From positions 1,871,087 to 1,935,086 of the forward strand of contig NW_022985551.1 of assembly GCF_010093815.1 (NCBI RefSeq): a stretch of DNA of 64,000 nucleotides, given 5' to 3'. The notes under the pieces are model-generated. The model saw only the letters and a program-made list of their open reading frames with translations, had not been told where the DNA came from and made no database searches. Shown in pieces: positions 1 to 44,069 of the stretch. Origin of the DNA: Pseudovirgaria hyperparasitica. Its lineage: Eukaryota; Ascomycota; Dothideomycetes; Acrospermales; Acrospermaceae. How positions within the stretch are numbered: the first letter of the stretch is position 1; each line of letters starts with the position of its first letter. Both the position numbers and the translations under genes were made by a program.

Positions 1-57
1 GACATGTGCCAAGGGGTATTGGACTGGGAGAAGGTCAAACTTGGTGAGCGTAGACTC

Positions 58-782: not shown

Positions 783-1076
783 TGATGTGTATCCGCAGTC
801 TGGATATTGCGTCTACCATCAATGGATGGCGTTGGTGTTGATGGTCTAACCACAATTGGTCGGAGGATCCACCGCGTCTCACGTCCAAGCTTTCCAATCC
901 AATTAGCGACGCGTCGGAGCGCGTACTCTCCCGGCCCTCAACACCAACACGCTGAACATCTCCAACCTCCGCATCCTCACAATGCAAACTTAACCCCATT
1001 CCTCAACAGTCCTCCACTAATGAATCCCGTATACGAATAGTCTGTCATTTCTATTTGAAAGGTCTCTCCGTCCAAC
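783..1076. promoter_or_regulatory. Divergent REX2/POL1 promoter with MluI cell-cycle box and CCAAT boxes
   Basis: This 294-base stretch between two divergent starts contains ACGCGT at 909-914, the MCB element bound by MBF-type G1/S factors in yeasts. It also has CCAAT at 894-898 and 899-903 and the inverse ATTGG at 855-859. The MCB lies about 165 bases upstream of the polymerase start. The motifs are read directly; function is inferred from yeast POL1 regulation. Confidence 0.5.
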
Positions 1077-4000: not shown

Positions 4001-5670
4001 GCTTTGAAGCTCACTGCCAACTCTATGTACGGGTGTCTTGGTTACACCAAGTCGCGTTTCTATGCTCGACCGCTGGCTATGCTCACAACGTTCAAGGGTC
4101 GTGAGATCCTACGGCGCACCAAAGATATGGCTGAAGCTCGACAACTGCGAGTCATTTACGGAGACACTGACTCTGTCATGATCAACACTAATATGGATAA
4201 CATGTCGGATGCTTTGAAAGTCGGTAACGAGTTCAAACGTGACGTTAACGACAGTTACAAGCTGCTGGAGATCGACATCGACAATGTTTTCAGGAGGTTG
4301 TTGCTTCATGCGAAGAAAAAGTATGCTGCCGTCAACATGGTGTCTATCGATGGCAAGTATGTTGAAAAATTAGAGGTCAAGGGTCTTGACATGAGACGAC
4401 GAGAGTACTGTGCACTATCAAAGGATACATCTTCGTAAGTCCTATGCCTCTTGCTATGTCATTCCCTTCTAACGAGAACCTAGACAATTGCTTAACTTCC
4501 TCCTCTCTGGCGAAGATCCCGAAACTGTCGTAGAGAAGATTCACGAATACCTCCGGGAGCTTTCGCAAAAGATGCGCGAGAACACCATTCCGATTCCCAA
4601 GTATACAATCTTTACAGTGAGTTGCTCATACAGACCTCGTGCCACTACATTGCTAACATATCCTCTAGCAATTGGGAAAGGATCCTAAGGACTATCCTAA
4701 TGGCAACAGCATGCCTTCAGTTCAGGTCGCGTTGCGTCAAATCGCCAAGGGCAAACACGTTCGAGCAAAGGACGTCATGTCCTTTGTGATTACTGGGGAG
4801 TCGAATGGATCTGCAGAAGGAGCTGCAAGGCACGCATTTACTCCAGAAGAGATCCGAGCTGATCCCACGCTCAAGCCCGACGTGGACTACTATTTGCACA
4901 AGCAGATACTTCCACCTGTCGAGCGTCTATGCGCACCAATTTCCGGAACCAACATTACCCGACTTGCGGAGTGCTTAGGCCTGGACACATCCAAATATCG
5001 AATCTCTCCTGTCGGTGGTAACAGCACTCAGAGTGAAGAATTCAGCATCCATCCTCTAGAATCGCAGATCCCCGACTCGGAGCGCTTTAAAGAGTGCTCC
5101 CCAATTATCCTCCGCTGTCGACATTGCACCTCTTCTGCCCCCTTCTTTGGCTTCGTCCCCTCCAAATCTTCTTCGGGCACCACTCTCGCCATGACGCACA
5201 CAGGCGTTACCTGCGCCAACATTGCTTGCGGCAAGCAGATCGAGTCATACAGCATCATCGCTCAATTGGAGTCTCAAATCCGCCAGCATGTCGCCCGATA
5301 CTATGCCGGCTGGCTCGTCTGCACTGATCCCGATTGCAGCAGCCGAACACGCCAGATGAGCGTTTATGGGCATCGCTGCCTAGGCCCTCGCGGCCTTGGA
5401 TCTGGCTGCCTCGGCAAGATGCAGTGGGAGTACACGGAGCGTGCGTTGTACAATCAGTTGCTGTACTCACAAGCTGTTTTCGATGTCGATCGGGCGACAA
5501 AGGGCAAAACCGAAGGCGATGAGGGCGAGAAGGTGAAGATCTTGGCAGAGGTCAATCGCGGCGGGTTTGGCGCGATAAAGGAGTGTGTGGGCAAGTGGCT
5601 GGAACGGAACGGAAGGGGCTGGGTTGCTATGGATAGTTTGTTTGGGTTTGCACTGAAGTCTATGGTTTAG
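1077..5670 (+). CDS. POL1: DNA polymerase alpha catalytic subunit
   Basis: Catalytic subunit of the polymerase alpha-primase complex, which extends RNA primers at origins and on the lagging strand in the nucleus. Exons 1077..1359, 1424..1527, 1577..4434, 4484..4616 and 4669..5670 join in frame to 1,459 residues, close to the yeast length. The N-terminus is acidic, with LRKSGKTRLESYE and a bipartite disordered stretch. The central part has an exonuclease-like fold without catalytic acids. Family B polymerase motifs are motif A DFNSLYPSI (about residue 857), motif B KLTANSMYG (about 943) and motif C YGDTDS (about 990). The C-terminus carries two Cys clusters (about 1275 and 1345), the zinc and Fe-S type modules that bind the B subunit. 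All four introns have GT..AG ends. It shares a promoter with REX2. Confidence 0.97.
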
Positions 5671-16185: not shown

Positions 16186-18042
<1,857 letters not shown>

Positions 18043-18834: not shown

Positions 18835-21403
18835 CAGATTAGACGTCATACGAGCCATCTCCGAGGCTCGGTGACATTGGTGGTGCGGCATAGCGCGCTT
18901 ATTTTCCACTAACGTCTATGTGGCTTGAACGTGGGTGTCGCAGCAATGGATTGCTTTTCGACGATTACGGATCCCACTCCTTCACCTTCTTCAGTGTGGA
19001 TTACTATATCATATACAAGCTATTCTGCATTGAGAGACGATAGTCAGAATACACCGTATTCGTCGTCTACCAGGAGTGCATCATGACCCAAGGTGGTATA
19101 CATAAGCGAACCGCGCTCATCGTCGCTATGTCAGGGCCTGGGTGGATTGTAGTTGGTCAATATAGGTCCCGTTTTTTGTTTTTCTATGGACGCGGAGGGC
19201 AATAAACGAAAATGCTGAGCATGTAGACTCACAGGAGACTAGCTCGCTATACGACTTATTACTTGGGAAAGATTGCCATCAAGGCTCATTGGTGTTGTAT
19301 TCAAAGTCATGGGTCTGAAAGGAATCGCGTCCTGCGGGATATGCTCTTCCATTCCGGATCGGGAGCCATCAACGGCCTTATGAGCTATGAGTCTGGTGTT
19401 TCTAAAGTCTTCGGACATTGTTGTGCCTCGTTGATAAGTAATTACCGGTAGATACGTCCAGAAGACATGCAACCTTCCATTCTGCGAAAAGTTCCCATGT
19501 TTCAGGGAGGTGGCCTGACACTGGCTCGGCGACTTGCACATTGCGAATGTGCCAATCATCTGGTCATGCATTGATTCATTAGATGAAGTAGGCGCTGTGA
19601 TGCTGTTGAATATTATATGGATACCGAAATTGCCCTCCGGGCGCTGCGGTCCAATCAACTACAAGGTATTCATGATGACTTCCACGCAGCTTGTGCACAT
19701 CAAGCTCTTTCTAGTTGTATGTTAACTCGATAAATCGTGCGTACATAGTAAAGTATAACTTGGAGTTCGTTGCCCCATACGGCCACAGGGATCGGCACAA
19801 TGTGGCACTATCAGTGCCTGCTTCTAGTCTCCAGACTCTAGGGCTCTTTGATCGAATATGCAAACATCTATGCTTTTAACAGTACGGTCTTGCATGCATG
19901 ACGGCCCGTTCTTCAGCCTCGTGGCAACTAGCCACTCGTCAGCGTCTGATATGTGCTGACACACGAAGTTCTGCGAACGCCTCATGTATAATTATGGTCC
20001 TTGTTACACAAAGAACAGTCGATTCGGACCGTCAACCAGTAAGTTGCTTTCTAGACCGGATGACTTTGCATGAACGTTGATGTCTGGCGAATGATTGGAC
20101 GCATGAGTATGTGTCTACCTTCTCAAGTAGTATAACATGGACGATCGATACAGCAGTGCAGTGACTATTCTCTGCAGTGGTGCTTTGATGGGTGGGTAGC
20201 TTAGGCCCGAGTGGGTAGGTTGAGCGTACTTATGTAGCCATAGTAGAGGACGTGGGGTATATGTATCCGCATGGATCTACCTGATCCTAGGCGTCGGATC
20301 CACCTGTTTTATTATTATGGTGGCTCACAACCATCACCTGAACAGTGAGGATGTTGGTGGCCGAAACAATGTTCGATACATCTTCCATAATCGGTCATGT
20401 CACAATACTGGTAGTGCGGGACCCTTTTTTAGACCCATTACAGCCCTGTCCTCACAAGCTCGTCGCGACTCACTACAGGCGCCCTCCATTCTACTATCCC
20501 CACGCTTTCGTCCAGGATGTTACATCGTTATAAAGCTAATGCTGGCTCGAATCGAGTCTCACCATCGGTAGACCGGTTCAGTATCCTAACATCAGAACGT
20601 GATTATGCTTTTTCAGCCATCTGAACAATTACAGTGTTTCGGTGAACATTCTAATTAGAGCGCAAAGGGCAAATGCCGACACGTGCCTGGGTCAACAGAC
20701 AGGGGAAGACAGCATCAACTAGTAGCATCTGTACGTTGATGTACCTTGAAATTCCGTGCAAATAGATCCAAACTTGTTTCTTGGTACAAATCCACACACT
20801 TCACTTTGAAAAGTGTAGGTCTTCAATCTGTGCGGTCTACATAATACGCCACCTAGTACAAAATATACACAACGCCACGATCCGAATACTGACATCAACG
20901 ACATCCACAGGATTCGAATTCGAGACTTCAACTACTCCGATACACTACTATTAATAGCTTTGATAATTACACCCATGAATCGCTTCCGATGGCTTGAGCT
21001 CGCTTATCAACGTACTTCTCCGATACTCGTATAATTGTGTTTCAATACCGACGATGCCACAGTCCAAGTCGACACAAATTTCTAGGAAGTCGCGTATTCA
21101 CGTGTACCCTGTTCGGGAGCATAGTTAGAATTGCGTACCGATTTTCATGTCAACAAGTTAGTTTGGATTGCGTTCGTAACAATCGTCTTTGACCTACCTC
21201 GACGAAGCTAATGAATAGCAGTCTGTTGCAAAGCGTCACTGTCTCAGTTCATGGCTAGTTTACGTCTCCGAATATCTCGTTATTCACCTATACTGGCTTT
21301 CAAAACCGCTGTATCCTTACAATTCTTCAAGTTGCGATCGAGTTGAAGTATTTCTCGGATGTAAACTGAATAGTTACTGTTCACCCGGCGTATACCTCAC
21401 AAG

Positions 21404-24400
21404 ATGGAAGATTCGACACTCAATGCGAGACCCCAGCTTTTAGTTGGCCCTGATGTCTTGCACGAACTTGTCAATAAACAATGTCCCTCAGATCACTGTG
21501 CAATCGATTTCCTGAACGACGATAGGACTAGAAGACGCTACACATATCAGACTCTACGGGACCAGAGCAAGACATGGGCACATCATCTAATACGGCATTT
21601 CGAGCGCACATCAGCCGGGTCCAGACCTACCGTGCCTGTGCTCATGCCCCAAGGGCCTGAGCTGTACATCACATTACTAGCCATACTCAGAGCTGGAGGA
21701 AGCTTTTGCACTCTGAGTATTGACGCACCTGCTGAGCGCATCAAATTCATCGTCAAAGATGTACATGCTCGTTTGCTATTGACAATAGAGTCTTATAGAA
21801 CCAAGCTTACGGCACTTGACGAGGTCGATGTCATTGCTCTTGGCTTCGATGAGGAGGACTCGCATGTAGATGTCAAGTCTGTGTTACCTACTGTGAAGTC
21901 TACAGACCTGGCCTATGTCATGTACACTTCAGGATCAACGGGCACGCCGAAAGGCGTGGGGATCCCCCATGGTGCAGTATGCCAGAGTCTGCTTGCACAT
22001 GAGCGACACATTCCACGGTTTTCCCGGTTTCTCCAATTCGCAGCACCGACGTTCGACGTATCGGTCTTTGAGATATTCTTCCCGTTCTTGCGGGGCTCTA
22101 CCTTGGTTGCGTGTGATAGATATTCCTTGTTAGACGACTTACCAGGAATTATGCGACTGATGGATGTAGATGCGGCGGAGTTGACTCCAACGGTCGCAGG
22201 TACGCTTCTCCAAACGCGAGCAGCTGTCCCGCAGCTGAAATTGCTATTGACAATCGGTGAGATGCTCACTCCACACGTCATCAACGAATTTGGAGCTGGT
22301 GAAGCTCGAGATAGTATACTTTGGGGAATGTATGGCCCAACGGAATGCTCCATACACTGCACACTGCAGCCTGCATTTAACTCCGAGGACCAAGTCGGTA
22401 ATATAGGATACCCACTCGACTCAGTCTCTGCTTTCATCATTGCTCCTGTGTCAGCAACTCATCATCCTGAGACTTTTAAGATTCTGCCCCTTGGCGAAAC
22501 AGGCGAGCTTGCGATTGGAGGTCATCAGCTTGCTGTTGGATATCTTAATCGCCAGGAACAAACGAGTTCTGCATTTATCAATACTGAGAATTACGGAACA
22601 GTCTATCGAACAGGCGACAAGGCAAAAATTCGGAACGATGGACGAATTGAATGTTTTGGCAGGCTCAGCAGCGGTCAGATCAAACTCAGAGGACAAAGAG
22701 TCGAATTGGGCGAGATCGAACAAGCTGCTCTCCAGGCCAGTCACTGCCGCACCGCAGTCGCATGTGTAGTATCTGGAGTTCTCGTCCTCTTCTGTCTGGT
22801 GTACACAGAAGTCAGTCGAGAACAGATCATAGAGTGTTGTCGGCGGTGGCTTCCAGAATTCATGGTTCCGGGAGACATTGTATTTGTCAAAGACTTGCCT
22901 CAGCTTCCTTCTGGAAAGGTCGATCGGAACGCACTTGAGCACAGATATATCGAACAAAGACGGCATATGCATATCGTTGAGTCTGAAGAGGAGGAAAATA
23001 TAGATAGCGTGATCCTTGAATGCGTCCTCGGACACTGCCAAAAGGTTCTAGGAGATCACGTCGGGCTGTCTACTCCTCTAGTGTCTGCGGGTGTCGATTC
23101 CCTTAATGCTATTAGACTTTCCTCATCTTTGCGGTCGGCTGGGTTCAAGATAGGGATGACCGATGTCCTAGAAGCGGAGAATGTTAAAAGTCTGGTACTG
23201 TATCTGGAGTCCTCGTCAAAACCAATTTCAGATGAGGCCGTCCAACAACAATCGAGAGCTCAGGCGACACTACACTCTTTCCTCGGACGAGGTATCCTGA
23301 GCAAGAACAAGAACAAAGTACAAGACATTCTACCATGCACGCCTTTGCAGGAGGCCATGTTGTCTGAAACTGCTGTCGATTCGGTCCGGTACTGCAATTG
23401 GGTCGAGCTTGAATTCACTCGAGAGCACAATATCTTTGCTATACGCAACGCCATCGAGAGACTTATTGATGAAAGTGAGGTACTTCGCACTGGATTCTAC
23501 CATGATAACGAACTACGTTCATTCGTACAAGTGATCTGGCAGCCTTCTGTGAAACCTCGCATTACGACCGTGCCATCGTTCGACCGCGAATACTCCCTAG
23601 GTACACCTCAGAAGCTTTTGCAACCACTAGCAGTCCAGATATGTACGACCAAATCTCCACCGAGGGTGCTCCTACAGCTTCCACATCATATCTATGATGG
23701 ATGGTCATTGGAGCTGATGTTGCAGGATCTCAGCAGCTACCTACGCGGGGAGGCTAAGGCTAAGAGAACGCAGTACAGCCAAGTGACAAAATATTTGACA
23801 ATGGAAGACCGCACTGCCGAAATGGAGATAGCTAGTTCATTTTGGTGTATCGAACTCCATGGTTTTCGGCCCAGACCGCTTCCGACGTTGTGTATCTCAG
23901 ATCCAGGAAACCGGAAAGCTTGCGTTTCATGGAGAATTCTGAGCAGCACTTATCCTAAAGCTCGAAAAGCAGCTCAAAAGATGAATATCAGTCCACAGGT
24001 CTACTTTCAAGTTGCTTTGTCCTGCCTAATCGGTGCGTACATCGGATCGCCGGAAGTGACTATCGGTCTTGTCACGTCCGGTCGAAGCCTCGCCTTGTCA
24101 GGAATCGAGTCAACAGTTGGTCCATGTATTGCAACACTTCCTTTGCGGATGCAACTGGGTCATTCACAAGAGATACAACAAGTCCTGTCTGATGTTCACA
24201 CCCTGAATCGAAGAGCAGTCAAGCATTGTTTGCTCCCGCTACGAGATATCAAAAAAATCGCCAATGTTCCGCTTGGAAATACAATGTTTGATGTTGTCTT
24301 TGCATGGCAGCAGACTACTCAGACATACGAAGATCTCGAGCGGCTTACCGTCAAACAGATCAAGAGCGCTGACTACCTTGAATCTAAACTCATGATTGAG

Positions 24401-27400
24401 ATCGAACCAAGCACTGAACAAATCACAGCCCGTGCCACTTTCGATCCGAATGCTCTGTCTAGATCCGTTGTTGAGACTCTTTTACTGCAAATTGATTCAC
24501 TTTCAGAGTTCTTCATGGATTGCCCCAACCGGCAATTGAACAATATTACAGAGTCTCTAAGCCAAGATTGTTTGTCTGTCGTTGCATCACGCAAAGCTTT
24601 CATACCTTTATCACTTGTTCCACCTCTCGAACAGACTGTGAAAAATATGGCCATTCTAATAATGCGACCACAATCCGATCTTTTGATACCAAAAGGGGCA
24701 CTTGGAGAAATTGTATTCTCTCCGCATCAAGATAGTGTTCTACTTGCCGCAACTAGAAAGCTTACGACTGAGTCTCAGAAACTGATACGTAGTGGTCAAT
24801 ATGGCAGAATACTTGGTGCCGGTCACGTACAAGTCATCGGTCCTATAGCCGAGATCGAGTCGCAATCGAAAGAGATTGAGATCAGCCACCCGCCCGAGAC
24901 TGCGAATGATACCGGCAACTGGACCAGAGGAGAGAAATTAGTGGCGGCAGCGCTCGCAGAATCACTCGATATTCCTGTGTCCATCATTAAGAAGGCCCTG
25001 CCCTTTGCTCGGTACGGTCTGGACTCTCTTATCGCGATCTCGATGTCAAGAATTTTGAAACGCCTCACTGGATATCATGTGCCTGTCTCGCTGATTCTAC
25101 AGAACCCGACGACTGTTGCATTAGCGTCACGAATTTCAAAAGACCCAGAGGAAATAGAACAACGTTCTAAGACCCGTGTTCACGATTTACAAAATATATT
25201 TTCCAAGGAAATAATAGACTGTATCTCCCTACAGTCAAGAAAGAAAGGCTTGGAACTTGCAAAAATTCTGCCATGTACACCTTTACAGGAGGCAATGCTT
25301 TCAGCTGAAATCAGTTCTACGTCTATCACATACGTTAACAGAATGCTGTTCCAAGTGCAAGGGGATTTGGGTCGACTCCAGCATGCGTGGGAAAGGGTCT
25401 GCGAAAGGCACGAAATTTTACGTACATGCTTCGTGCCGACCGACGACCCTCGTTTTACGTACGCCCAGGTTGTACTTAAAAACATTTCAGCAGTATGGAT
25501 AACTGAAGATACGGAAGAGGATTTACTGCCGTCCAGGGTTGAAAAGCATGCTCAAAGCTTCGCTAAGTCCATCCCAGACTCTACAGGACCACCTTTGAAA
25601 TTTACTTCTTTCATCACGCCTACTACCACATATATGTTATTCTGCTGCCATCATGCTATCTATGATGCAGAGGCAATGTCTATAGTACTATCCGACGTTC
25701 AAGATATATACAATGGCCTATTGTTATCGTCGCCGATATCATATGAACTATTCTTGAAGGACATGGTATCTACAGATATGGAGGGAGCAGATGAGTTCTG
25801 GTCTAGAGTTCTTGCAAACTTTGAGCCCACTGCGTTTCCTTACTTGAATGGAAAGTCGGCCAACTGGAGGAAAACTAAAAATATGAAGGCAATGGTGGTT
25901 GTAGATCTGGATGTCTCACTTGATGAAGTCACGCACGGCTGTAAAGGCTCATCAGTATCACTTTTATCCGCAACTCAAGCTGCCTGGGCAAAAATGCTTC
26001 AAAGTATACTCGGCGAGCAAGACGTTTGTTTCGGGAGTGTTTTCAGTGGTCGCACAACTAGCTCAGATGACCTTGATCGACTTGCGGCTCCTTGCTTCAA
26101 CACCTTGCCCATTCGAGCGGACATGTCGTTGAACACCCAGAATATCGACTTAATGCGCAGTCTAAGTAATCACAACGTAGAAGTCCTTCCTTATCAGTTG
26201 ACTCCACTACGACGTATTCAGTCGGTCATCGGAGTAACCGGACAGCAACTCTTTGACACACTTTTTATACTGCAACGACCGCCCAAAAAACTGGATGATC
26301 GAATATGGAAGCTTATCGAGGATGTAGGATCTATGGACTTCCCGCTTGTTGGTGAAGTCGTCCCAAGTCCAGCTACAGGCACTGTCACGCTCACGGTCCA
26401 TTACGACACGTCATATATTTCGGATCGTGATGCTCGTGTGTTGGCTAAAGTGTACACTGCAGCTCTGCGATCGTGTATCACTAACCCTTCAGCATCGACT
26501 GTTGAATTCTTAGGACTGTGCTCAGGCTCACTGTCCATAAGTAACCCTGAACCATGTATCCTTGAACAGGAAGAACATCGAGGTTTACAATCCGCGTTTG
26601 AGGATCAAGCAAGGCTCTGTCCAACAGCTACGGCGCTTTCTTTCTCTTGGGCTGACAAGAAATTCCAGACTTGGACTTTTGATGAACTAAATGGTATCGC
26701 TAACTCAATAGCCGAAGCTTTACTTCGTCTAAACGTTCGCATTGGAGACGCTGTGCCAATTCACGCTCCGAAGTCACCCATGTTCTATGCCAGTGTCCTT
26801 GGTATTCTGAAGGCTGGAGCCGCCTTTACGCCCATCGACCCTGATCTACCCCCATCACGGAAGCAGTATATGATTGATGAACTTGGAGCAAGGATCATGA
26901 TCTGCGACACTGAATCACCTCCTGGATGTCCTCCAGAAATCACATGTCTGACATTGTCGCAACCTCTCAAACCATCATCTCATAATCCAAAAGTCGATGG
27001 GTTTCATAGTGGATGCTTAGCGTATCGATTATACACCTCCGGGTCGACTGGAAAGCCCAAAGCAGTTAGTATGGAGCATAAAAGTCCCATGCATACTATT
27101 GAAAGCTCAAAAGATATCATTCCATGGGACCAGAATTCGAGGTTACTTCAATATGCTGCCACTACGTTCGACATGTGTTACTACGATTGCTTCTTGGCCT
27201 GGTCTTTCGGGTTCTGCTTGTATGCCGCAGAGCAGACTCTTTTGCTCAACAGCTTGATCGAAGTGATCGAAGATAATCAGATCACGCTTCTAGATTTGAC
27301 ACCTTCAGTAGCTAGAATACTGAAACCGTCGTTTGTTCCCTCGGTAAAGTATTTATACTGTATCGGCGAGCCTATGGCTCAAGAGATAGTCGATCGGTGG

Positions 27401-30400
27401 CCTGGAAAATGCGTCAACTCCTATGGTCCTACAGAAGCGGCATTCTGTTCCACAATACAGCTAATGGATAAGGAGACCAGCCCGGCTGTGATCGGCAAGC
27501 CTTTTCCCTCGGTGTCGTTCTACCTCTACTCTCCCTTAGGCCATTTTGATGTACCAATTCTTGGTGCTGGTGAGCTTTACTTAGGGGGCCCTCAAATTGC
27601 ACGAGAGTACCATGCCAACGTCGACTTGACACAAAGGCACTTCATTCAGGTTGATGGTCAAAAGCTGTACAAGACTGGTGATTTGGTTCGTATGCTCACC
27701 GATGGAACCTTTGAATTTATTGGCCGAAACGATGATCAAATTAAGATGCGGGGGCTACGTATAGAACTGGAAGAGATCACAACTGTCATCGAACAAGCCC
27801 ACCCAGACATCAAATCTGTCACAACACAAGTTCTAAGAACCTCTGAAGATAACAAAGGCCAGCTTGTCTCATTCATTCAGCCCAACATCAGCACAGTTGA
27901 TCAGACTAGTGACGCCATAATTGAAGCCGCCAAGCGATCTGCTAAGAGACAGCTGCCATCCTACATGGTGCCCTCATTTTTCCTTTCCATTGAAAACTTT
28001 CCCCTATCAGCTGCTGGAAAATTAGACAAGAAGGCTTTGAGCATGATATTGCATCGGAACATCCAGCAATCTTCAGACAAAACAGAGAATGTGGAGAGAG
28101 TCTGGACGCCACTTCAGTTAGAGCTTCGAAAGACTCTAGCTGCACTTGCTAGAACCCCATTGGCTAAAGTGTCACATGATACGTCTATCTATCAGCTCGG
28201 CCTTGATAGTATCAATGCTGTGCAAATTGCATCCAAGCTTCGTAAGATAGGCTTCAATGTTCTTGCGGAGCATGTGCTTCGACATCCAACTTGTGACTCG
28301 CTGTCTATATTCTTAGAAGATCATGGTGGCAGCAAAGGGTATGCAAAGCATCATGAGGGATTTGATTTTCGAAGTTTCGATGGTGAGTGTCGCCGGTCAC
28401 TGAGATCTTCCACTCGGATCAACACGAACGACTTTGTCGTAATCCGCCCCTGTACTCCGCTACAAAATGGTCTGCTTGCCAAGTTCATCCAGTCAGATGG
28501 TGAACTCTACTTGAATAGGTTTACGCTGCTCCTGGATCCCCAAATTAGCGTGAGTCAGACTAGGGAAGCCTGGTCAACAGTATGCCAGAATCACGAGATG
28601 CTACGTGTTGGCTTTATCAATCTACAAGTTGCCGGAAGTCAATTCTGTATGGTCAGCTACAAAGAGACGGCTGTGGAATCAAATCTCAGATTTTTTGAGG
28701 GGGTTTCCTGGTCGGAAACCAATTTCAGAGAATGGCAAGCAAGCTGCTCAAACGACATACTCCAAAGTCTCCACTTACCACCATGGCGCATAGTAGCGGT
28801 GGAAACCGAAGGTCGGGTCATGGTTTCCATGTCGATTCTACATGCACTATACGATGCACAAAGCTTCAATGCCATCATGGATAGTTTTGCTAAGACTCTT
28901 CAGTCCCAGAGACTAGCTCCAGAATTACCTATTGAGCCAGTTCTGAGTGATATCATACAGGCTAGCAAGATAAATGAAGCAGCAAAGTCCTTCTGGAAAA
29001 ACACACGAGACAGGATTTTTATCAACCGCTTCCCGAATCTACATCCAGTTCAAGTTAGCAGTTCTGGAAAACAGGTGCTCGTAGAACTCGCTTCTACTAC
29101 GCTTACTGATTTAGAACATGACTGTCGACATGCAAATATCACTCTTCAAGCGGCAGCGCAGGCAGCGTGGGCTCGTATCTTGGCAGCATACACTGGAGAG
29201 CAAGCGGTAACATTCGGCGTAGTACTTTCAGGTCGATCATCACACGAATCCGAGGAAGCTGTATTCCCGTGTTTCACAACTGTGCCGATCACTATTCGGA
29301 ACCACAATAGCAATCGCGAGCTACTACAAGTAATGATGGATACAAATGTGGCAGTCCGAGAGCATCAGTTCACACCTCTGAGTGACATTCAAAGGCTGAC
29401 AGGCTATCCAAACGAACCGTTGTTTGATACTATTTTCGCGTATCAAAAGCTTTCTAAAATTTCAGACGTAAGGTACTCTTGGAAATTAGAAGTAGAAGAG
29501 GCTAAAGACGATGTGAGTCCTGAACTGGGTTTAACAGTCTAGAACTAATATGAAAAAGCATGCTATCTCGATAGAATTGGAGCCGAACACGGAAAATCGG
29601 CTTCAATATCGGTTGACTTATGATGCGAGCTTGCTACCAGATGAACAAGCAGCAATTCTTATACAACAGCTTGATACCGTACTGACTGACCTAGTCAAAC
29701 TACCAGACGGGAACGCTGACGATTCATATAAAAGAAACCTGCACCTGTATTCTATTACACCTGCCAAAAACATCGTGATACCGTCCAGTGTCCAACTGCT
29801 GCACCAATTCGTGGAGCGAAGTGCGCTTGAACATCCAAAACGAATCGCATTGGAATTTGCGATAGGTTTTGATGAAACAGAACCACGATCAGAACTATGG
29901 ACATATGAGGATCTGGACCGCCTTGGGAATAAGATTGCAAATATGCTGGTAGACAGAGGTACCATACCGGGAAATCTCATAGCTATATGTTTCGATAAGT
30001 GTCCCGAGGCATATTTCTCGATCCTGGGCATCTTGAAGGCCGGGTGTGCCTATGTTGCCATTGATCCCACTGCACCAGCAGCACGAAAGATGTTCATCTA
30101 TGAAGATTCCGGAGCACAGTTGTTTTTGTCTACCCGAACACTCTCTCAAGATTTCATTCTTGATAGACCAGGAACACTCATCAATATGGATGATACTGAT
30201 CTGATGTCGTTCTCAGCCAATGCGCCTTCACTTTCCCGCTCAATCAGCCCACAAGATCGTAGCTACTGCTTGTATACTTCCGGTACGACGGGAACCCCAA
30301 AGGGCTGCGAGTTGACGCACGAGAACGCTGTTCAAGCAATGCTCGCATTTCAACAGCTTTTTTCAGGGCACTGGGATGACGCCTCTAGATGGCTCCAATT

Positions 30401-33400
30401 CGCCTCTTTCCACTTTGATGTTTCCGTCTTGGAGCAATATTGGAGCTGGTCTGTCGGTATCAGAGTTGTATCCGCTCCACGCGACCTGATTTTTGAAGAC
30501 TTGCAAGGAAGTATCCGAAAGCTTGGTATCACACATATCGATCTGACCCCGAGCTTGGCACGTCTAATCTATCCTAAGGACGTTCCGGATCTTTGCCGTG
30601 GAGTCTTCATCACGGGTGGGGAGCAATTGCGCCAAGATATTTTGGATGTATGGGGCCCCAAAGGAGTCATATACAACGGTTACGGTCCCACAGAGGCTAC
30701 AATTGGCTGCACGATGTATCCTAGGGTTCCTGCAAATGGCAAACCATCGAATATCGGACCTGCGTTCGATAACGTGGGCTCTTTTGTTCTACAACCTGAG
30801 ACAGATATACCTGTGTTTCGCGGTGCCATCGGCGAGCTGTGCGTCTCTGGCAAGCTCATAGGAAAAGGGTACCTCAATCAACCGGACCTGACGTCGGAGA
30901 AGTTCCCGACACTCAACAACTTCAAAGAAAGAGTCTACCGAACAGGAGATCTTGTCCGCATTTTGCACGACGGTACTTTTGATTTCCTTGGAAGATCTGA
31001 CGACCAAATCAAGCTACGAGGTCAGCGTTTGGAGATTGGTGAGATCAACTCTGTCATCAAGCAGAGTGTACGCCAGGTAGAAGACGTAACAACATTGGTG
31101 CTCAAGCACGAAAGACAACAAGGAGAGCAGCTTGTGTCTTACATTGTTATAGGAAAGTCATTACTAAGTAAAGGGGAACCAGAAGTGGTATCAGGAGCCT
31201 CCAGGATCGTGTCACTGGTCAAAGAGAAGTGCAAGAATCTATTGGCAACCTACATGGTCCCCACTCACATCATTCCGATCACTTCGATACCGCTGTCAGT
31301 AAACAATAAGGCAGACGGGAAACGGCTACGAGAAATCTACAACGGCCTATCTCGCGAAGTATTGCAGGAGCTTTCTGACACAACAGACTCGAAGCCTTTT
31401 TCAAGCACCGAGCGATTGATTTTAGACGCCGTAGACTCGATCGTCAGTGTGAACAGTGATCTTGCATCGAGAGACTCCAGCATCTTCGAGCTTGGTCTAG
31501 ACTCCATTACAGTGATAAGTCTCTCTATGAAATTGAAAGAGTCCGGGTTGAGATACGTCTCGCCTGCAATCATCATGAAGAATCCAACCGTGGGAAGGCT
31601 GGCAATGGCTCTGAGAAATACACAATTTTCGAACGAGGAGAGTGCCGTTCTCGAGGTAGTGCAATTAATAGCTGCAACCCATCACAAATATAAGTCTCTT
31701 GCCACGAATCTTCTCGGCGTCAAGACAGAGACTATAGCGAGCATTGCTCCTTGCACGCCACTACAACAAGGGATGATCTCCAGAGCTTTGAGAGTCGACA
31801 ACAAGGTTTATTTCAACACTTTTATTTTCGAGTTGGCTGCTACAACAGATATCAACCGATTGAAGACATCGTGGACCAGTGTCTACGGAGATGTGGAGAT
31901 TCTCCGTACTAGGTTTATGCCTACGGATGATGGATACATTCAAGTCGTCATCGAGAATTGTTCCCTACCATGCATTGCGGTGGATATCGCTGATGATAGC
32001 AACCTGGTAACTGCCTTGAAATCAGAGGCTCGAGCATGGCGAGATTGTAACAACGATATCATCGCGAAGCCCTTCCAGATTACCTTTGCTACGTCATCAA
32101 AACGTACGATCATGGCGGTTCACTTCTTCCACGCAATCTATGACGGCAACAGTCTATCAATGGTCTTCGAGCGCGTTGTGCAAGAGTATCGACACTATAA
32201 GACCACTACTCGAGGATTGAGTTTTAAAGATATGCTCCCGTATGGACCTCTACGGAAAGCACCAGGTGCACAGGATTTCTTTAAAACACAGTATTCGAAT
32301 GCTACACCACAACAATTTAAGCGCCAGTACAAGAGCTTGCATACATTGAATGCGACGGTCTCATCAGTATTCGCGTTAGACGACAGATATGAGGAAGTGA
32401 GGAAGGCGTTGAGAGTAACAGATCAAGCCATCGTTCAGGCATCCTGGAGTGCAGTACTCCAAAAAAAATTATCTGACTCGATTACTTTAGGCATCGTTGT
32501 CTCAGGAAGGACATTGGAATATCCCGATGCTGAATTGACGATAGGCCCGCTATTCAACACAATACCACTCCACATACAATTTGACAATACATCCACGTGG
32601 GCATATGTTGTAGAGAGATGCCACGAGTTCAATATGGGCGTCCTCCCATATCAGCATACTCCTCTTCGCGACGTTCTTAAGTGGACAGGCATGAATTCTG
32701 ACATGACCCCATTTGAGAATCTTCTGGTCTTTCAAAAGGAGAGATTACAGTCTATTGAATGGAACCGTAATGACCTATGGGATCTGACTGTTGAAGACAC
32801 TGAGCCTGATTATCCAATCGCGTTGGAGGTCATACAGAAGCAAGATGGGTCACTCCAGGCGACACTGGCTGTGAGGGGTGAGTTTATAGACTCAGAAGAA
32901 GCTAGAGAGCTCCTCGATCAATTTCAGGCGGCTGTCAAATCGTTGGTAAAGTCACCTCAGGATCTTGTATCAAACACCGTCGGCCCGTTCAGTTCCATCA
33001 CCAAGTCAGTCGAAGTCAACGTGGCGTCGGATCATGGCGTCTCAGTATCACAAACGTTCAATTGGACTCGGGAGAGCGAAGCTCTACGTTCTGAGCTGGC
33101 AGAAATGACAGGAATGAGCGCATCAACTATCCAGCCATCCACATCCATCTTTGACGTGGGCCTGGATAGTATCGACGCCATTAGTCTATCATCCAGGCTA
33201 CGAAAGCGCGGCTGGTCACTTCCAGTGTCTGCAATCATGCGGCATTTGACGATCGAGAAGATATCAAATCACTTTTTAGGGACCTCGCATAGCAAGACGG
33301 ATGATTTAAATTCTCTGGAAACCATAAAAGTGAAACAGGAAAAGTTAGAAAAGTACATGAGAAGTATTCGGCAGGGTGAGCTCATCGAGCGTGTTCTTCC

Positions 33401-36400
33401 AGCAACGCCACTCCAAGAATCGATGGTCGCAGAGATGTTTGCTTCAGATTTCAAACGGTACTTCAACCATGACCTGCTTAAGCTATCACCGAAAGTTGAT
33501 GTCGATCGCTTGAAAACAGCATGGGCAAATATCGTGCAAAGCAGTCCGATACTTCGAACAACGTTTCAGGTTGTGGAATCATCGGATTTTGACGCCTCCT
33601 ATGCTCAAGTCATCTACTCTTTCGTGGATCTTAATTGGCAAGAATGCAGCACTTCCGACAAAGATGTGGACGAAATTATAGCAGATATCTGCTTCGATGC
33701 AGCCTTTAAGGGTTTCAACACGAGTTTATTACAGCTTAGGCTTATAACAGTATCTCAAGAGAGCTATCTGTTACTCAGTATAGCACATGCTCTCTATGAC
33801 GGATGGTCTCTTGGGGTCTTACATGACCGGGTGAATGCTGCATATAATGGGAACGTGATTGAAGACCAACACCATGATGAAACGGTGTTTGAGATAGTCG
33901 GGTCTGGTGCTTTGAATAATGGCGATTTCTGGAAGGAGTTCCTCTCCGACACAAATGCTGCACCATTTCCAAGGCAGCGTGATCCAGACAACGGCGGTGA
34001 GGAAGACACAAATCGCCAGGAGTTCCAAAGTGCATTATCCCTTGTTATTGTGCGGGAAGCCTGCAAGAATCTCGGTGTCTCCCTGCAAACACTCAGTCAG
34101 ACTTGTTGGGCACTTGTACTCGCATCCTATACTCATAGTCTGGATGTCACGTTCGGAGTCGTACTATCTGGTCGGGATAGCGAGGTTTCGAATGGCTCCT
34201 TATTTCCGACTATGAATACGGTACCAGTACGATCTATTATCCATGGCACTTGCCAAGACTTACTTCGCTATATGCAGAGTAATATGGCCAAGATTAGACC
34301 GCATCAACATTTCCCACTACGAAAGATTCAATCTGTGACTGGAAGGCGTGGTGAAGACTTCTTCAACACCCTGTTCATATATCAGCGTAGACCAGAACGC
34401 CAAGGGGCTACAGCAGAACCTCTATACCAAAGCGTTGGTGGCAAGAGTGATACAGAATATCCTATTGCTGCCGAGATGGAGGCTGCCGACGGAAAGATTT
34501 GGTGGCGCTGCGCATGCCGCAATGACTACCTGGACATGGAAGGAGCAGATACACTCCTACAGCGACTTGATCACACTCTACAAATATTGGTCAGTGAACC
34601 CACTTCTTCAGTCTTTCACTTCAGCAACAACGGGATATCCGTCTGTGGACTTCCATCATTTAATGAGCAGCAACTATCACAAGTAGAACATATTCAGAGC
34701 CTTGCAGAGAGAACAGAAGTGGGCATTCAAGAACATTGGACAGAAAAGGAGGAAGTAGTGAGAAAGACAATCGCTCGAGTTGCTAAAGTATCTGAGGACG
34801 ACATCTTGCGAAGCACATCAGTCTTCCAGCTCGGTCTGGACTCGATCAGCGCCATCAAAGTTGTTTCCCTGTTACGGAGTAGCGGACTGAAAATCAGCGT
34901 CGGCGACTTGCTGAAAGCCGGCTCATGCATTCAGATAGCTCGTATGGTCTCCACCTCAACCGAAGCTAGAAAGGACATGACCGGCGAGACAATGAGGGAT
35001 CTTGAAACAGAGTATCTTGCGCTTTTACGAAAGAAATACTATCACAAAAAGGACGATGTCGACACGTTCTTGCCGGCCACGGCAGGTCAGACTTACATGT
35101 TGGTGGCATGGAAGAAGTCAGAGGGATACTCATTCTACCCAACATTCCATTATAAGCTATCAGGACAGGTTTCGCTGGAACGGCTCCAGGCCGCCTGGAC
35201 TGCTCTCGTCGATGAGCAGCCAATGCTGCGCACGACCTTTCTCTTGTATAAGGACCCGACACTAGATACACCACCGTTCATCCAAGCAACTTTGAAGAAA
35301 CGGCCGAGTCTGATCCGCCCGGGTTACTTAGAGAAAGATTTTGGTCAGCCTTTTGCTGATCTTTATGCGGACAAGTCAGACGATGGGTGGATCTTGAGTC
35401 TCAAGCTACATCACGCTCTCTATGACGGCGTCAGCCTTCCACTCTTACTGGATCGTCTTATTGTGCTGTGTCATAGACCTTCTGTCGGACCCAACCTCAG
35501 ATCTCTCATGTTGGACTTCACAGCTCTTCCTTCCATTGATGGCCTCTTGGACCAGCAAAAAGTTTTTTGGAAATCTTACTTCCAAGACCTTTCAGTGAAC
35601 CGCGGGCTTTCAACCAAATCGCCACTTTTACTACTTCAGCCGCGCGAAACGCCAACGAACAGATTCGAAGTATACCGATCACAAACGATTCGTCATCTAG
35701 ATCTCCGTAAAGTCGCCCAGCGGCATAGAATCACACTCCAAAGTATACTTCTGGCGGCCTATGCCCGCGTCTATGCAACATTCGATCCCACGAAACCCAG
35801 ACTCGACGGGGTCACAATTGGCATATACCTGGCCAATCGCTTCCATCCCAAGATGGAGTCACTCCCGTCGGCGACAATTCCATCTGTGAATCTTGTACCC
35901 ATCCGAGTCCATTCTCTGATGACCGAGTCGCTCATCGACAGTGCTATCAGAGTACATCAAGACCTCCTCGAAATCGGCTCATTCCCAAATGCCGCCACCA
36001 GCCTCGCAGATATATATAACTGGACCGCTGTTCGCGTCGATACCTTTGTGAATTTTATTCGTTTGCCGGGTGCGGAGCCGGGCGATGAATCTGGTTCCCT
36101 ATCACATACGGAGGTTGGGGTCGATCCAGTCCCTCCATCTCCATCAAATGCAAATGATCGGACAGGGAATACTGCGTCTGACACTCCGATCACATTAACA
36201 TCGCTAGATGCCGAGTTACGGGAACCACGTACCTGCGTTACAGAGCTGACCGCCGCCGGTCGACAGTCGTTGTCTTCATTTGATCGCATTGAATCGCGCT
36301 ACAGTGATGCATATTTGGTAAGTTGCGCCGTCTGGTCGGTTTACATTTGTGCATGGAGCGACGCTAATTAAGTATATGCAGCACGCACTAGACATTGAGA

Positions 36401-36522
36401 TTGCTGAGCGAGGGGATAAATTGGACATAGGAGCGTTCTGCCCCGAAGGCATGATGACTCTGGAAAATTTGACGCAGGTAGTGAAAGAATTGAGGGAAGT
36501 GTTAGGGAGAGCGATGGACTGA
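21404..36522 (+). CDS. sidC: Ferricrocin/ferrichrome-type siderophore NRPS (SidC/NPS2 class)
   Basis: Assembles a cyclic hexapeptide siderophore from hydroxyornithine units and small amino acids. Exons 21404..29512, 29559..36317 and 36382..36522 join in phase 0 to 5,002 residues. Intron 1 has GTGAGT, ACTAAT, AAG; intron 2 has GTAAGT, GCTAAT, GCAG. Order by motif: A1 (SGSTGTPKG near 21930), T1 (GVDSL, 23092), C1 (HHIYDG, 23684), shrunken A remnant (24640-24880), T2 (GLDSL, 25015), C2 (HHAIYDA, 25650), A2 (SGSTGKPKA, 27040), T3 (28200), C3 (HALYDA, 28840), A3 (SGTTGTPKG, 30280), T4 (31494), C4 (HAIYDG, 32130), T5 (33162), C5 (HALYDG, 33785), T6 (34834), C6 (HHALYDG, 35407). All six carriers keep the phosphopantetheine Ser. 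A3 ends with NNKADGKRL in place of the usual SGKxDR. The repeated T-C pairs at the C-terminus are the ferricrocin-synthetase signature. Product is inferred from class. Confidence 0.95.
24640..24880 (+). other. Degenerate adenylation-domain remnant inside the NRPS
   Basis: Between C1 and T2, only the tail of an adenylation domain is recognisable. IPKGALGEIVFS corresponds to core A6, SGQYGRILGAG to A7 (normally TGDYGRL) and VQVIGPIAEIES to A8 (normally VxxxGRxDxQVKxRG). The A3-A5 nucleotide-binding cores and the A10 lysine are absent. The frame stays open, so the remnant is translated as a linker of roughly 130 residues. Confidence 0.72.
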
Positions 36523-37025
36523 ACGGTAAAACTTTCCCTTTGAATGTGACGAGTTGTTTCGCGTTCGTTTTTGTTACACATGGCGTACGTGTTGAGCGAT
36601 TTGGCTTGTTTCAGAATGTATCTTACAAGCTTGTGAATTCATTCGCGTTACAGGTCACACACACGCAGTAGAGATGAAGTGCAATTACCATGGTTTAATT
36701 TGTGAAAACCGAGCTGATTGTGAAACAAACAACCTTTGAGATGTCCTGGCGCAAAGTGACTTGTTATTGCAATGGACCCAAGACAAAGAGTTCCCCAGCC
36801 GTCCAAGCATCCACGACAAAGGTTTAGTCCCACCAGCCCATATATAACGCCGATGCCCTATGTGCGCTCCCATATGCTACGTGCACCCTATATCCTGTGC
36901 ACACACACGCTCTTCCGATGATGCATGAGCGCTTACTGATATCTCGTAGCCGAAACTCCTAACCAGTAGACCCGCTGTAACCGTCGTGATGTCGTTATAA
37001 GTGGTCAGACCCAGCTTTACTGGCT
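36523..37025. other. Intergenic between convergent genes, no gene seen
   Basis: About 500 bases between the NRPS stop and the stop of the uncharacterised minus-strand gene. It presumably holds both 3' ends. Short frames only. Confidence 0.45.
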
Positions 37026-39986: not shown

Positions 39987-42377
39987 CTAAATGATCTCCA
40001 ACCCGTCGTCGTCATCATCATCGTCAGGGGTATTTCCACGACCTCCTAGGCTTTCTCGACCGGGCAATCTTATGCCCTTCTCCTCAAGGATGAACCTGGC
40101 CTTCTTCTTGACCGGACTTGACTGTCGCACCTCCGGCTTTCTAATTGGACTTGGAAGACCGCGTCTATAAGCTCCGCCCCACCCTACAGCTTCACTTCCA
40201 GAGTTGAGCACTCGCTTCCGCTTGTTTGCATGGGCGAGGCTGACGTCACTAGCTTTTCGATTCAGCAGTCCCAGACTTGCTGCGTCTGTCTTCTCCTTTG
40301 GTCCATCCCTCGAGCTGTCCGACCCAGTGTTGGCATTGTATCCAGAAACATCGCCAACTTTCCGGCGCATATACTCCCCCCCAAGACCTGTACCCATCTG
40401 TCCAAGCTTTCTTGCTAGTTCCCGCTCCTTTTCTTTGTCTGCGAATCGCTTCCTAGACTGTTCAGCGCGAGAAAGCGTTCTCTCGATGCCGCCCCCGAAA
40501 TCCATATCTTCGTCATCGAGAATTTTAGCCGCACTGGGCGCAATGTATACCGTTTCGTGTATACTACGATCTCTAAACATGCCTTCTCTTTTAAGCTCGT
40601 CGCTTCGTTTCGTGCCGGCTGCGCCCTTTCGGAGACCGAACATGCCAGACCCACCACCAGACCGAGATCCAAATCCAGTCATCGTGTTGACCTCCATGCG
40701 CCCACTTTTCGTCTTTTCAATGGCGAGACTGACATGAAATTCGCAAACCTTCGTCTTGCGGAGATCCACCCAGGAGCCGCATTGCTTGCCGTCTTTCTTG
40801 ACTGCGTTGCAAAACCCCAGATCACGCGCAGATCCAATCTCAATGACACTGTCCTCGCTACTTGATAGCTTCAAGGAAAAGTTCCCAGTATCCTTATTCT
40901 TCGGCGGCATGATTCCCGGATTCAGTATTGCAACCACTGTGCCCACTGTCAACTTCCAGAATTCCGAGAACCCAGTTGCAAATAAATACATGTCCAATTC
41001 CCAGTGGAGATCTGAAAGCCGCAGTACCATAAATTTGGCTCGCCCTGCAGCTTGATCATCTTCGGCTTCCTCGTCCGGGTCGCCATTCGAGGTCTTCTGG
41101 TATTTCTTCTTATGGTTTAGAGGTGTTGATTTAGATGCAATGATCCCGAGAACAACGTAGTCTGCTTCAACGTCCGGAGGATCATAGTGGGGCGATTTAA
41201 CTTCCTTCAGTAGTTGGGGAATAGTGTATACTGTCTTTCCATCTAGATGTCGTGTCAATGTTGTATGTGGAACAATGCGCTTTGAGAGATGGATGCCAGA
41301 AAACGATTCAAAGAGTGATGGATCTATCGAAACAGCTGAATCCGGTTCTGTCTCGTATTGAGTGGTCGGGGAGGTGGCTCGAGATCTGAAGGATCTAAGA
41401 TTGTTTTCGGAAGATCTAGACGCCAATGAACGCTGCGATGACATGGATGTTTCAGAACGGCCTGTAAGCGTCGTTGATATGGATGGGGAGGAAGTGTGAA
41501 AAGATGCATCTTTATTTTGACGAGACAGTGCATCAGATGACTTAGTGAAGCCTTGCCGCAGATTCGGTTGTTGTCCTTGACTGTGCATTGATTGCTGCGA
41601 AGAAGTACGCATATCGCTGACGCCGTGCTGGTCCTTTTTGTTGAACCCAAAGCCACTGCTCCTGGACTTTAAAACACGTTCCTGTTTTTCATTGCGTTCG
41701 CGTTCTGCGTCTCTGATCTGGATCAACTTCTCGCTAAAGCTTTTGCCTCTGGGCGCCGCATGACCATCCCCGCCCTGTTGTGACGTGGGCCTGGGGTTTA
41801 ATTTCAGGTCGGCCCGAGTCTTCTCCAGCCTGGTAGAGAAGCTCGCGGCCCGCTTCAAGGACACATCTTGTGCTCTTAGGCCTTTGTCGATCCCTAAGAG
41901 CACGCGTGCTGGTGAAGGGGGAAGCTTTGGAGCTCTCTTATCATGTGTAGGAGATACGGGTATCTGGACAGTGAACGCCGGCGACTGGGCTCTCCTCGAG
42001 TGTGTAGACGTTCTAGTCTGTTCTGTGTCAGAGCTTCCTTGGGCGGCCTTTCGAGCCTTTGCCTGTTGCAATTTTTTTAGCTTCAACTGTGCTTGGATTT
42101 CTTGTAGCTTGAGCTGTAGCGTCTCCTCATCATCTTCGTCTTCATCCTCGGACATAGCTTTGTGTAATGCATTGAGTCGAGATGTAGGCTGCGGTCGCTT
42201 CGTTGGGGATGGTGATGCGTCGCGATTTAGTCGGCTTTCGAGTCTCTTTCGCCCGCTCGGGGACGTCAACAATGCCTCGTGTGGAGACCTTGGCGGCCAA
42301 TTTCTCTGCCTTTCCGGTACTTGTTAATGCGTCAGTCTTTTGCCCTCGTTTCCATTGACCACCTTACCTCGAGACAT
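39987..42377 (-). CDS. MCM10: Minichromosome maintenance protein 10
   Basis: Replication initiation factor that links the CMG helicase to polymerase alpha. No ATG opens the main frame, so a tiny first exon is needed: 42377..42368 (ATG TCT CGA G), a 48-base intron (GTAAGG, GACTGAC, ACAAG), then 42319..39987. This gives MSRVPERQRNWPPRSPHEALL and 780 residues in all. The N-terminus has a Gln/Leu/Lys coiled coil. The central OB fold includes GKTVYTIPQLL, ADYVVLGIIA, FMVLRLSDLHW and VAILNPGI. Directly after it is the CCCH zinc finger FCNAVKKDGKQCG..KVCEFH (C-x9-C-x11-C-x2-H). The C-terminus is basic (SSPVKKKARFILEEKG) and ends in a poly-Asp run. It is divergent from RNase H2B. Confidence 0.94.
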
Positions 42378-42710
42378 TGAATATCTAGGGGCCAAAGAGC
42401 CGGATGACGTTATTCGAACGACGCGCCCTAGATGCTGATCGTGACAACGAGTACTGGTCCATCACGATAGTGAAGGCTAGAATGTACAAGGTTCGCCGTG
42501 CCACATCCAGGTTGTTCACATATCCGAAACGGCTTAAAGAATGCGCACTGTCCAATCGACGGTCGTTAATGCTTGGGTTCTCGTCGCGTGAGTGAGCTAC
42601 GCCAAGACATAAACGACGCGTCGCCTAGCGCGAAACGACCGGGCGTTGATTGTGCTTGGATACATCCATTCGTGATCTCTCCCAAAAAGGTTCGTACAGC
42701 AATTGATACC
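42378..42710. promoter_or_regulatory. Divergent MCM10/RNase H2B promoter with MluI cell-cycle box
   Basis: A 333-base region containing ACGCGT at 42616-42621, a nearby GCGCGAAA (E2F/SBF-like) and CCAAT at 42552-42556. Elements were read directly; G1/S control is inferred. Confidence 0.45.
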
Positions 42711-44069
42711 ATGAAAACACGCTCAAAGCCCCCAAAGTCCTCAACTTCTAAGGAGGTAGAGGCGACCACACAGCAAACAACCGCATCCTTACCAGCGTGC
42801 GTCGATAATCCGCCTATACCTTTCGTTCTGCCAGAAGGTCTCTCCGAGAATGCGCGCATAGTCACCCTGGCAAATCCAGCTACTACGTCTCCCAACCGCT
42901 ATCTTTTCTGCCCAAGCAAAGGTTTCTATGAGTTCACAAGGATCGCTGCACCGAAGAGGTTACCGAGGAGCTGGCTCTTCAGTCCATCGCAAAATGGTCC
43001 CGTGGACGTAGCGAGTGTAGAGGGAGACTGTATAAAAACGAGTAAAGATGAGGATACAGGAAAGCCTGTGCCATTTTCGGATGGTTACGTGACTTCAGCA
43101 CCCGACTTGATGATAGCAACCCATATGGATCCGTTATTCCTCTTACTTCCAGTTCTGGCGCCTTCCGCGAAAGTCAAAGCACCTCAGAAACAAATGTTCT
43201 TATCCTTAGACGACCATCTCGAGAAACTCAGCGATTCGTCTCGGCACCTCAAATTCTTGTTGAATAACGTAAAAGCAAGGGAAATTCTAGAGAAGCGGAT
43301 GGCTGCTGTATGCGACGATGTTGATGCAGGTGGTGAGCAAATGTATAGATTATCAGACGAAAAGTTGGTTCAAGAGCTACTGTCCAAGGCAAAGAGGATG
43401 ACGGATAATGGCCTTCCCGCGTCCTTGGAGGAGAAATACGTTCGCCTTGTATTGCAGATACCGGTCCTCAGTGTTAAGCGAGAGGACAGCTCTACGAGCG
43501 TAGAAGTATCACAAGCAGACAACCTTATTGATACGGAGGGCACGCGGACGCCTTCCGACACCAGTGCAGAATCACAACTGTCGACCGATTCTGCGCTCAG
43601 CACAGAAACCGTAGCGACCTCTGTGTCAATCAGCACTGCGACGTCCGCATCCAAGACCCCACTTATCGAAGCCCCCGAAGGTATACCCGATCTCCTGCGC
43701 CTTAAAACAGCATTCTCCTTTATCCTCTCATCCTATGTCCCATGTCATCTCCATCCTACTCTCACATCCCACCTCTCGAGCCAGAAGGCTATCGACTTCA
43801 GCCCCCTCGATGCGCATCTAGCTCACATCGCCAGCTTGCGCGAGAAGGCCCAAGCCCTGCGCTCCATCACCGATAACATCAGCCGTAAGCGCGCAGCGGA
43901 CGACGATGATGAGGCCGCGGCGTTGCGCGCTGAGAAAAAATTGAAAAAGGAAGAAGAAGAACGAAAAAAGAAGTCCGAGAGCCGGGGTGTGAGAGACCTG
44001 AAGAAGGTGAATACAGCTGGGATGAAGAAACTGAGTTCGTTCTTCACGAAGGCCCCGGCAAAGAAGTGA
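42711..44069 (+). CDS. RNH202: Ribonuclease H2 subunit B
   Basis: Non-catalytic subunit of RNase H2, which removes ribonucleotides and R-loops from nuclear DNA. The first ATG in the open frame is at 42711 (MKTRSKPPKSS), giving 452 residues without introns. Family segments are RYLFCPSKGFYEFTRIAAPK, RSWLFSP, DLMIATHMDPLFLLLPVL and the helical DDHLEKLSDSSRHLKFLL. Later parts are a Ser/Thr-rich insert, then FILSSYVPCHLHPTL and FSPLDAHLAHIASLREKA. The C-terminus is highly charged and ends with MKKLSSFF (44022-44045), which resembles a PCNA-interacting box with Met in place of Gln. Confidence 0.9.
   Translation: MKTRSKPPKSSTSKEVEATTQQTTASLPACVDNPPIPFVLPEGLSENARIVTLANPATTSPNRYLFCPSKGFYEFTRIAAPKRLPRSWLFSPSQNGPVDVASVEGDCIKTSKDEDTGKPVPFSDGYVTSAPDLMIATHMDPLFLLLPVLAPSAKVKAPQKQMFLSLDDHLEKLSDSSRHLKFLLNNVKAREILEKRMAAVCDDVDAGGEQMYRLSDEKLVQELLSKAKRMTDNGLPASLEEKYVRLVLQIPVLSVKREDSSTSVEVSQADNLIDTEGTRTPSDTSAESQLSTDSALSTETVATSVSISTATSASKTPLIEAPEGIPDLLRLKTAFSFILSSYVPCHLHPTLTSHLSSQKAIDFSPLDAHLAHIASLREKAQALRSITDNISRKRAADDDDEAAALRAEKKLKKEEEERKKKSESRGVRDLKKVNTAGMKKLSSFFTKAPAKK

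Follow-up and report, generated by a model that had tools for sequence, protein, structure and literature searches.

The 64,000-nucleotide stretch of Pseudovirgaria hyperparasitica DNA analysed here (contig NW_022985551.1, positions 1,871,087 to 1,935,086; hereafter the window) carries a gene for a ferrichrome-type siderophore synthetase that appears to show the loss of an adenylation (A) domain caught half way. The gene (21404-36522, plus strand) has three exons and two introns and encodes a spliced protein of 5,002 amino acids. Its domain order, A-T-C-(91 residues)-T-C-A-T-C-A-T-C-T-C-T-C, comprises three A, six carrier (T) and six condensation (C) domains. We propose, with a probability of roughly two in three, that this is an NPS2-lineage synthetase whose second A domain (AMP2) has been eroded, that its first A domain (A1) loads the second carrier (T2) with glycine, and that the product is ferrichrome and not ferricrocin. 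Trees and domain layouts have led to the inference that ferrichrome synthetases arose from an ancestor with six modules through repeated A-domain loss. A loss caught half way favours A-domain erosion over T-C duplication at this module; a neighbouring A domain probably now feeds the station left without one, and the product may have changed.

A putative A-domain remnant between C1 and T2

The gene's own domains served to build the profiles from which the domain order was obtained. Independent Pfam counts in the two main reading frames (2+1 AMP-binding, 3+3 carrier and 3+3 condensation stretches) agree in kinds and numbers, and the order is that read from motifs in an initial annotation of this DNA, whose joined protein of 5,002 residues has the same length as that obtained by splicing the three exons. 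The acceptor serine is present in all six T domains and the xHxxxD[A/G] motif in all six C domains. In particular, T2 keeps GLDS and C2 keeps HHAIYDA, which bears out the earlier description of a collapsed A domain whose T and C partners are intact.

C1 and T2 are separated by 91 residues, compared with 0 at C4-T5 and 6 at C5-T6, the two other junctions lacking an A domain. A profile constructed from the three A domains of this same protein gives a weak match to residues 1078-1146 (linker residues 39-107) at profile positions 329-404 of 531; the match is collinear and extends from after core motif A5 to about A7. It scored 10.4 bits with this profile, 8.4 bits with a profile of 6 ferrichrome A sequences and 5.1 bits with a general profile of 17 A sequences, values reached by 0, 1 and 5 of 10,000 shuffles, respectively. 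With none of the three profiles was the remnant score reached by any of 432 open-frame tiles (141 residues each) from the same genome, tiles that shared sequence with an A domain or with the remnant having been excluded. These comparisons argue that part of an A domain persists, in decayed form, within the 91 residues. The initial annotation had called this piece an A6-A8 tail: its A-domain origin stands, but the extent given is slightly off and the piece is smaller, since A8 was not found by motif. A motif search of the gap for the P-loop, A5, A8 and A10 found none of them, and, in keeping with that annotation, neither Pfam nor the own-domain profiles detected a complete A domain in the C1-T2 interval.

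The insert is also GC-poor at third codon positions. Its GC content there (GC3) is 0.319, whereas the six other segments for which it was measured gave 0.437-0.603; among 4,912 windows, each of 91 codons, 39 have a GC3 as low. The lowest such window in the scanned part of the gene (0.264; 24542-24814, codons 1047-1137) spans the last part of C1 together with most of the remnant. This low GC3 fits relaxed constraint, short of proof.

Several observations weigh against an A-domain origin. Pfam-A gave no A-domain match in the linker at E values up to 10, and phmmer against PDB sequences, at the same limit, returned nothing for it. The general A profile yields only 5.1 bits on the remnant alone and, applied to whole frames of 21001-37000, gives it -1.2 bits (E 8.1), less than the highest-scoring chance match in another frame (2.3 bits, E 0.75). 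Single-sequence AlphaFold prediction gave a confidence (pLDDT) of 38 and no usable fold. The low similarity, the silence of Pfam and the -1.2 bits would all be accommodated if the insert were an unrelated linker and the T-C pair had arisen by T-C duplication, not by A-domain loss. We regard this as very unlikely in view of the shuffle and tile tests, the collinear position of the match and the 91-residue length, unique to this A-less junction. Moreover, when C2 was compared with 15 further C domains, all of them the genome's own paralogues, identity did not exceed 28%, and the lack of a close twin disfavours a recent T-C duplication.

The A domains are repeated within the gene, so that a complete one could in principle have been lost by repeat collapse in the assembly, or overlooked through a missed intron or frame. 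A collapse would, however, place the junction inside normal A-domain sequence, whereas the linker is 22, 23 and 25% identical to its own A-domain paralogues in a MAFFT alignment and has lost their motifs. The match at E 0.75 mentioned above is the best that the A profile finds in the other frames, a consensus scan (strict enough to miss the exact end of intron 1) found no intron start in 24300-25000, and the window lies inside a contig of 2.3 Mb. An artefact of this kind therefore seems extremely improbable.

The remnant is most likely a relic that is still wearing away, because a comparable spacer is missing from the two other A-less junctions, where the loss of the A domain is presumed to be older. 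It is conceivable, but rather unlikely, that it is instead a folded platform of retained A-domain core, positioning C1, T2 and the loading A domain, and not mere debris. A more elaborate proposal, which we consider doubtful, is that the fragment has been kept by selection as a mini-subdomain docking T2 to A1, and that domain erosion brought about a natural switch of the enzyme's product, from ferricrocin to ferrichrome.

Probable identity of the lost domain and lineage of the synthetase

Substrate pockets were read from an alignment at the 17 positions given in Table 2 of Bushley et al. 2008 (PMC2644324). The pockets of A1, A2 and A3 are identical at 17 of 17 positions to AMP1, AMP3 and AMP4, respectively, of ChNPS2, a four-A enzyme of Type V (PMC2644324), leaving AMP2 as the missing one. 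The eroded domain would accordingly occupy the AMP2 slot, for which serine is the predicted substrate (PMC2644324). Two points count against this assignment and what follows from it: the AMP2 identity comes from elimination and position, not from similarity of the remnant to AMP2, and the substrates of AMP1-AMP3 are published predictions, the 10-residue code having failed according to Bushley et al. (PMC2644324).

The protein has the six C domains and the terminal T-C-T-C of NPS2-lineage ferrichrome synthetases, and its first and last A pockets are of the NPS2 kind (17/17 with ChNPS2 AMP1 and AMP4). The six C domains and the pocket matches place the gene in the NPS2 lineage, adjoining Type V, and descent from the four-A layout AMP1-AMP2-AMP3-AMP4 is, from the sequence, the most likely origin. 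The initial annotation had taken Aspergillus SidC as its comparator and had counted an extra T-C unit. Neither choice holds: SidC is a Type II enzyme with five C domains, and the published model would make the T-C pair no addition but what is left of old module 2 after the loss of its A domain.

As the six types are described in the text of Bushley et al. (PMC2644324), the layout appears to fit none of Types I-VI; Type III seems its nearest skeleton and Type V its nearest relative in pockets. With Type V NPS2 of Cochliobolus heterostrophus, also a member of the Dothideomycetes, it shares six C domains, the terminal T-C-T-C and three A pockets at 17/17, but Type V has four complete A-T-C modules where three complete A domains and a remnant at AMP2 are found here. 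With Type III, Sib1 of Schizosaccharomyces pombe, it shares an A-less T-C right behind the first A-T-C module. In Sib1, however, the next A domain is degenerate, whereas the corresponding A2 is intact here and carries the five core motifs looked for; the consulted text of Bushley et al. makes no mention of a remnant at the position of the AMP2 lost by Sib1. Type IV, NPS2 of Fusarium graminearum, likewise has three A and six C domains and belongs to the NPS2 lineage, but it lacks AMP3 and has its T-C behind the second module, while here AMP2 was lost and the T-C stands behind the first.

A truncated A domain (dA) is known from module 2 of SidD/NPS6. The N-terminal part of the A domain is gone in both cases (no P-loop or A5 is found in the gap here), but the SidD/NPS6 dA lacks about 290 N-terminal residues and, by implication, keeps its C-terminal part, whereas here the A8-A10 end is gone as well, no A8 or A10 motif is found and about 70 residues remain recognisable.

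Published layouts include A-T-C-A-T-C-T-C-A-T-C-T-C-T-C in Cladosporium sphaerospermum (PMC4886633) and in Phialocephala, where it is called type IV (PMC5148876), and a nearly identical one in Ceratocystidaceae (PMC6563098). A Rhynchosporium gene groups with type IV (PMC5118889), Nps2 of Cladosporium fulvum has been called 'type IV' (PMC3895014), and Nps2 of Alternaria has four A domains (PMC7046739). A layout with AMP2 lost and AMP3 intact is unreported among the matches listed, in a literature that was mostly non-subscription. Within that literature, erosion in the AMP2 slot would thus be a previously undescribed layout with a clear chemical prediction; A-domain loss itself is known in this synthetase family. 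SidC of Cladophialophora bantiana (T-C-T-C-T-C-A-T-C-T-C-T-C; one A, six T and six C domains; PMC5003357) represents a more extreme loss and may merit a search for remnants too.

Proposed loading and product

The remnant cannot adenylate, because the P-loop, the substrate pocket and the catalytic lysine are gone. The initial annotation reasoned that another A domain must then load T2, or the module is skipped, and this was right in kind. In the mechanism that we propose, AMP2 would have been cut down and have decayed to about 70 recognisable residues. A1 would load glycine on T1 and also on T2, one module downstream (n+1 loading), A2 would load glycine on T3, and A3 would load N5-acyl-N5-hydroxyornithine (AHO) on T4, T5 and T6. 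The C domains would then join and close the six-residue ring Gly-Gly-Gly-AHO-AHO-AHO of ferrichrome, where relatives with four A domains make ferricrocin.

Loading across modules has precedents in this family. SidC of Aspergillus nidulans belongs, like the present enzyme, to the ferrichrome family, and its A3 loads the carriers of A-less modules one and two modules downstream; no loading of a SidC carrier was detected without a C domain ahead of it (Jenner et al. 2023, PMC10192304). For SidD, the same authors had demonstrated earlier, as cited there, that the upstream A1 loads T2, the carrier of the dA module, past the truncated A domain (PMC10192304). By analogy, A1 could charge T2 in the present enzyme. 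A further point against this route is that T2 could be served by A2, through upstream loading, instead of A1. T2 is expected to receive glycine whichever of the two loads it, since both are predicted glycine domains, and the predicted ring is therefore that of ferrichrome, Gly3-AHO3. Ferrichrome is also the product of S. pombe Sib1, another enzyme without AMP2 (PMC2644324).

It seems unlikely, but deserves consideration, that the product is still ferricrocin. A1 would then activate serine, as SidC A1 does, or both serine and glycine, and the loading order would differ from that predicted for NPS2. Indeed, SidC A1 loads serine (PMC10192304) and the NPS2 assignments are predicted, in part by default (PMC2644324). 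On the other hand, the A1 pocket identical to ChNPS2 AMP1 also matches AMP1 of Sib1, which makes the all-glycine ferrichrome (PMC2644324), at 13 of 17 positions, and its five best matches do not include SidC AMP1. Should the product prove to be ferrichrome, this would support AMP2 as the serine domain; should it be ferricrocin, the published NPS2 assignments would need revision.

Gene structure and genomic context

The gene was assembled from plus-strand open frames at 21374-29542 and 29535-36371, joined across predicted introns of 46 nucleotides (29513-29558) and 64 nucleotides (36318-36381), with the protein ending at 36522. The introns were chosen from sequence by splice motifs, reading frame and the continuity and ends of the C domains. 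Intron 1 ends in AAG in place of the usual YAG, and the intron-consensus scan gave it solely with a longer, frame-breaking end. Coordinates are collected in Table 1.

Table 1. Siderophore genes of the window and domains of the synthetase (window coordinates).
Feature	Position	Residues	Strand	Remarks
L-ornithine N5-monooxygenase (SidA-type)	16340-18042		-	Two overlapping open frames; Pfam PF13434, 2.5e-78 and 6e-16
NPS2-lineage ferrichrome-type siderophore synthetase gene (probable)	Exons 21404-29512, 29559-36317, 36382-36522		+	Reading frames and chosen introns
A1	21413-23008	4-535	+	Pocket 17/17 with ChNPS2 and FgNPS2 AMP1 (predicted Gly)
T1	22976-23179	525-592	+	AGVDS serine
C1	23312-24604	637-1067	+	HHIYDG
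C1-T2 insert, 91 residues	24605-24877	1068-1158	+	Holds putative A-domain remnant; GC3 0.319
Recognisable A-domain remnant (putative)	24635-24841	1078-1146	+	After core A5 to about A7
T2	24878-25111	1159-1236	+	GLDS serine intact
C2	25253-26548	1284-1715	+	HHAIYDA intact
A2	26543-28081	1714-2226	+	Pocket 17/17 with ChNPS2 AMP3 (predicted Gly)
T3	28064-28291	2221-2296	+	Own-domain profile
C3	28427-29783	2342-2778	+	Crosses intron 1
A3	29775-31379	2776-3310	+	Pocket 17/17 with ChNPS2 AMP4 (predicted AHO)
T4-C4	31365-33026	3306-3859	+	Own-domain profiles
T5-C5	33024-34676	3859-4409	+	No spacer ahead of T5
T6-C6	34695-36296	4416-4949	+	Terminal C domain

The opposite strand encodes a SidA-type ornithine monooxygenase 3.4 kb upstream of the synthetase gene; enzymes of this type start the hydroxamate building block. 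A monooxygenase gene of the SidA kind is also found near NPS2 in C. fulvum (PMC3895014) and Alternaria (PMC7046739), with further genes between or beside the two. Domains of a family B DNA polymerase, an Mcm10-type zinc-finger/OB protein and an RNase H2 subunit occur at 1532-4438 and 39987-44069 of the window, which places the siderophore genes near ordinary conserved genes.

The same genome holds a second synthetase, of the SidC-like Type II, on another contig (C22:70500-88500), with the order A-T-C-A-T-C-A-T-C-T-C-T-C (three A domains and five each of T and C). The pocket of its A2 matches SidC AMP2 at 14 of 17 positions, one position being missing at the edge of the fetched sequence. The gene in the window is therefore neither the sole ferrichrome-type synthetase of this organism nor its SidC. 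An AMP-binding enzyme adjoins the second synthetase on the opposite strand (L012:6968-7999) and may be an acyl-CoA ligase that serves another hydroxamate.

Elsewhere in the assembly, the sole exact match to a conserved 5.8S motif is in a ribosomal DNA copy (contig C40:6070-9089) that by eye seems to carry very many C-to-T mutations, the pattern expected from repeat-induced point mutation.
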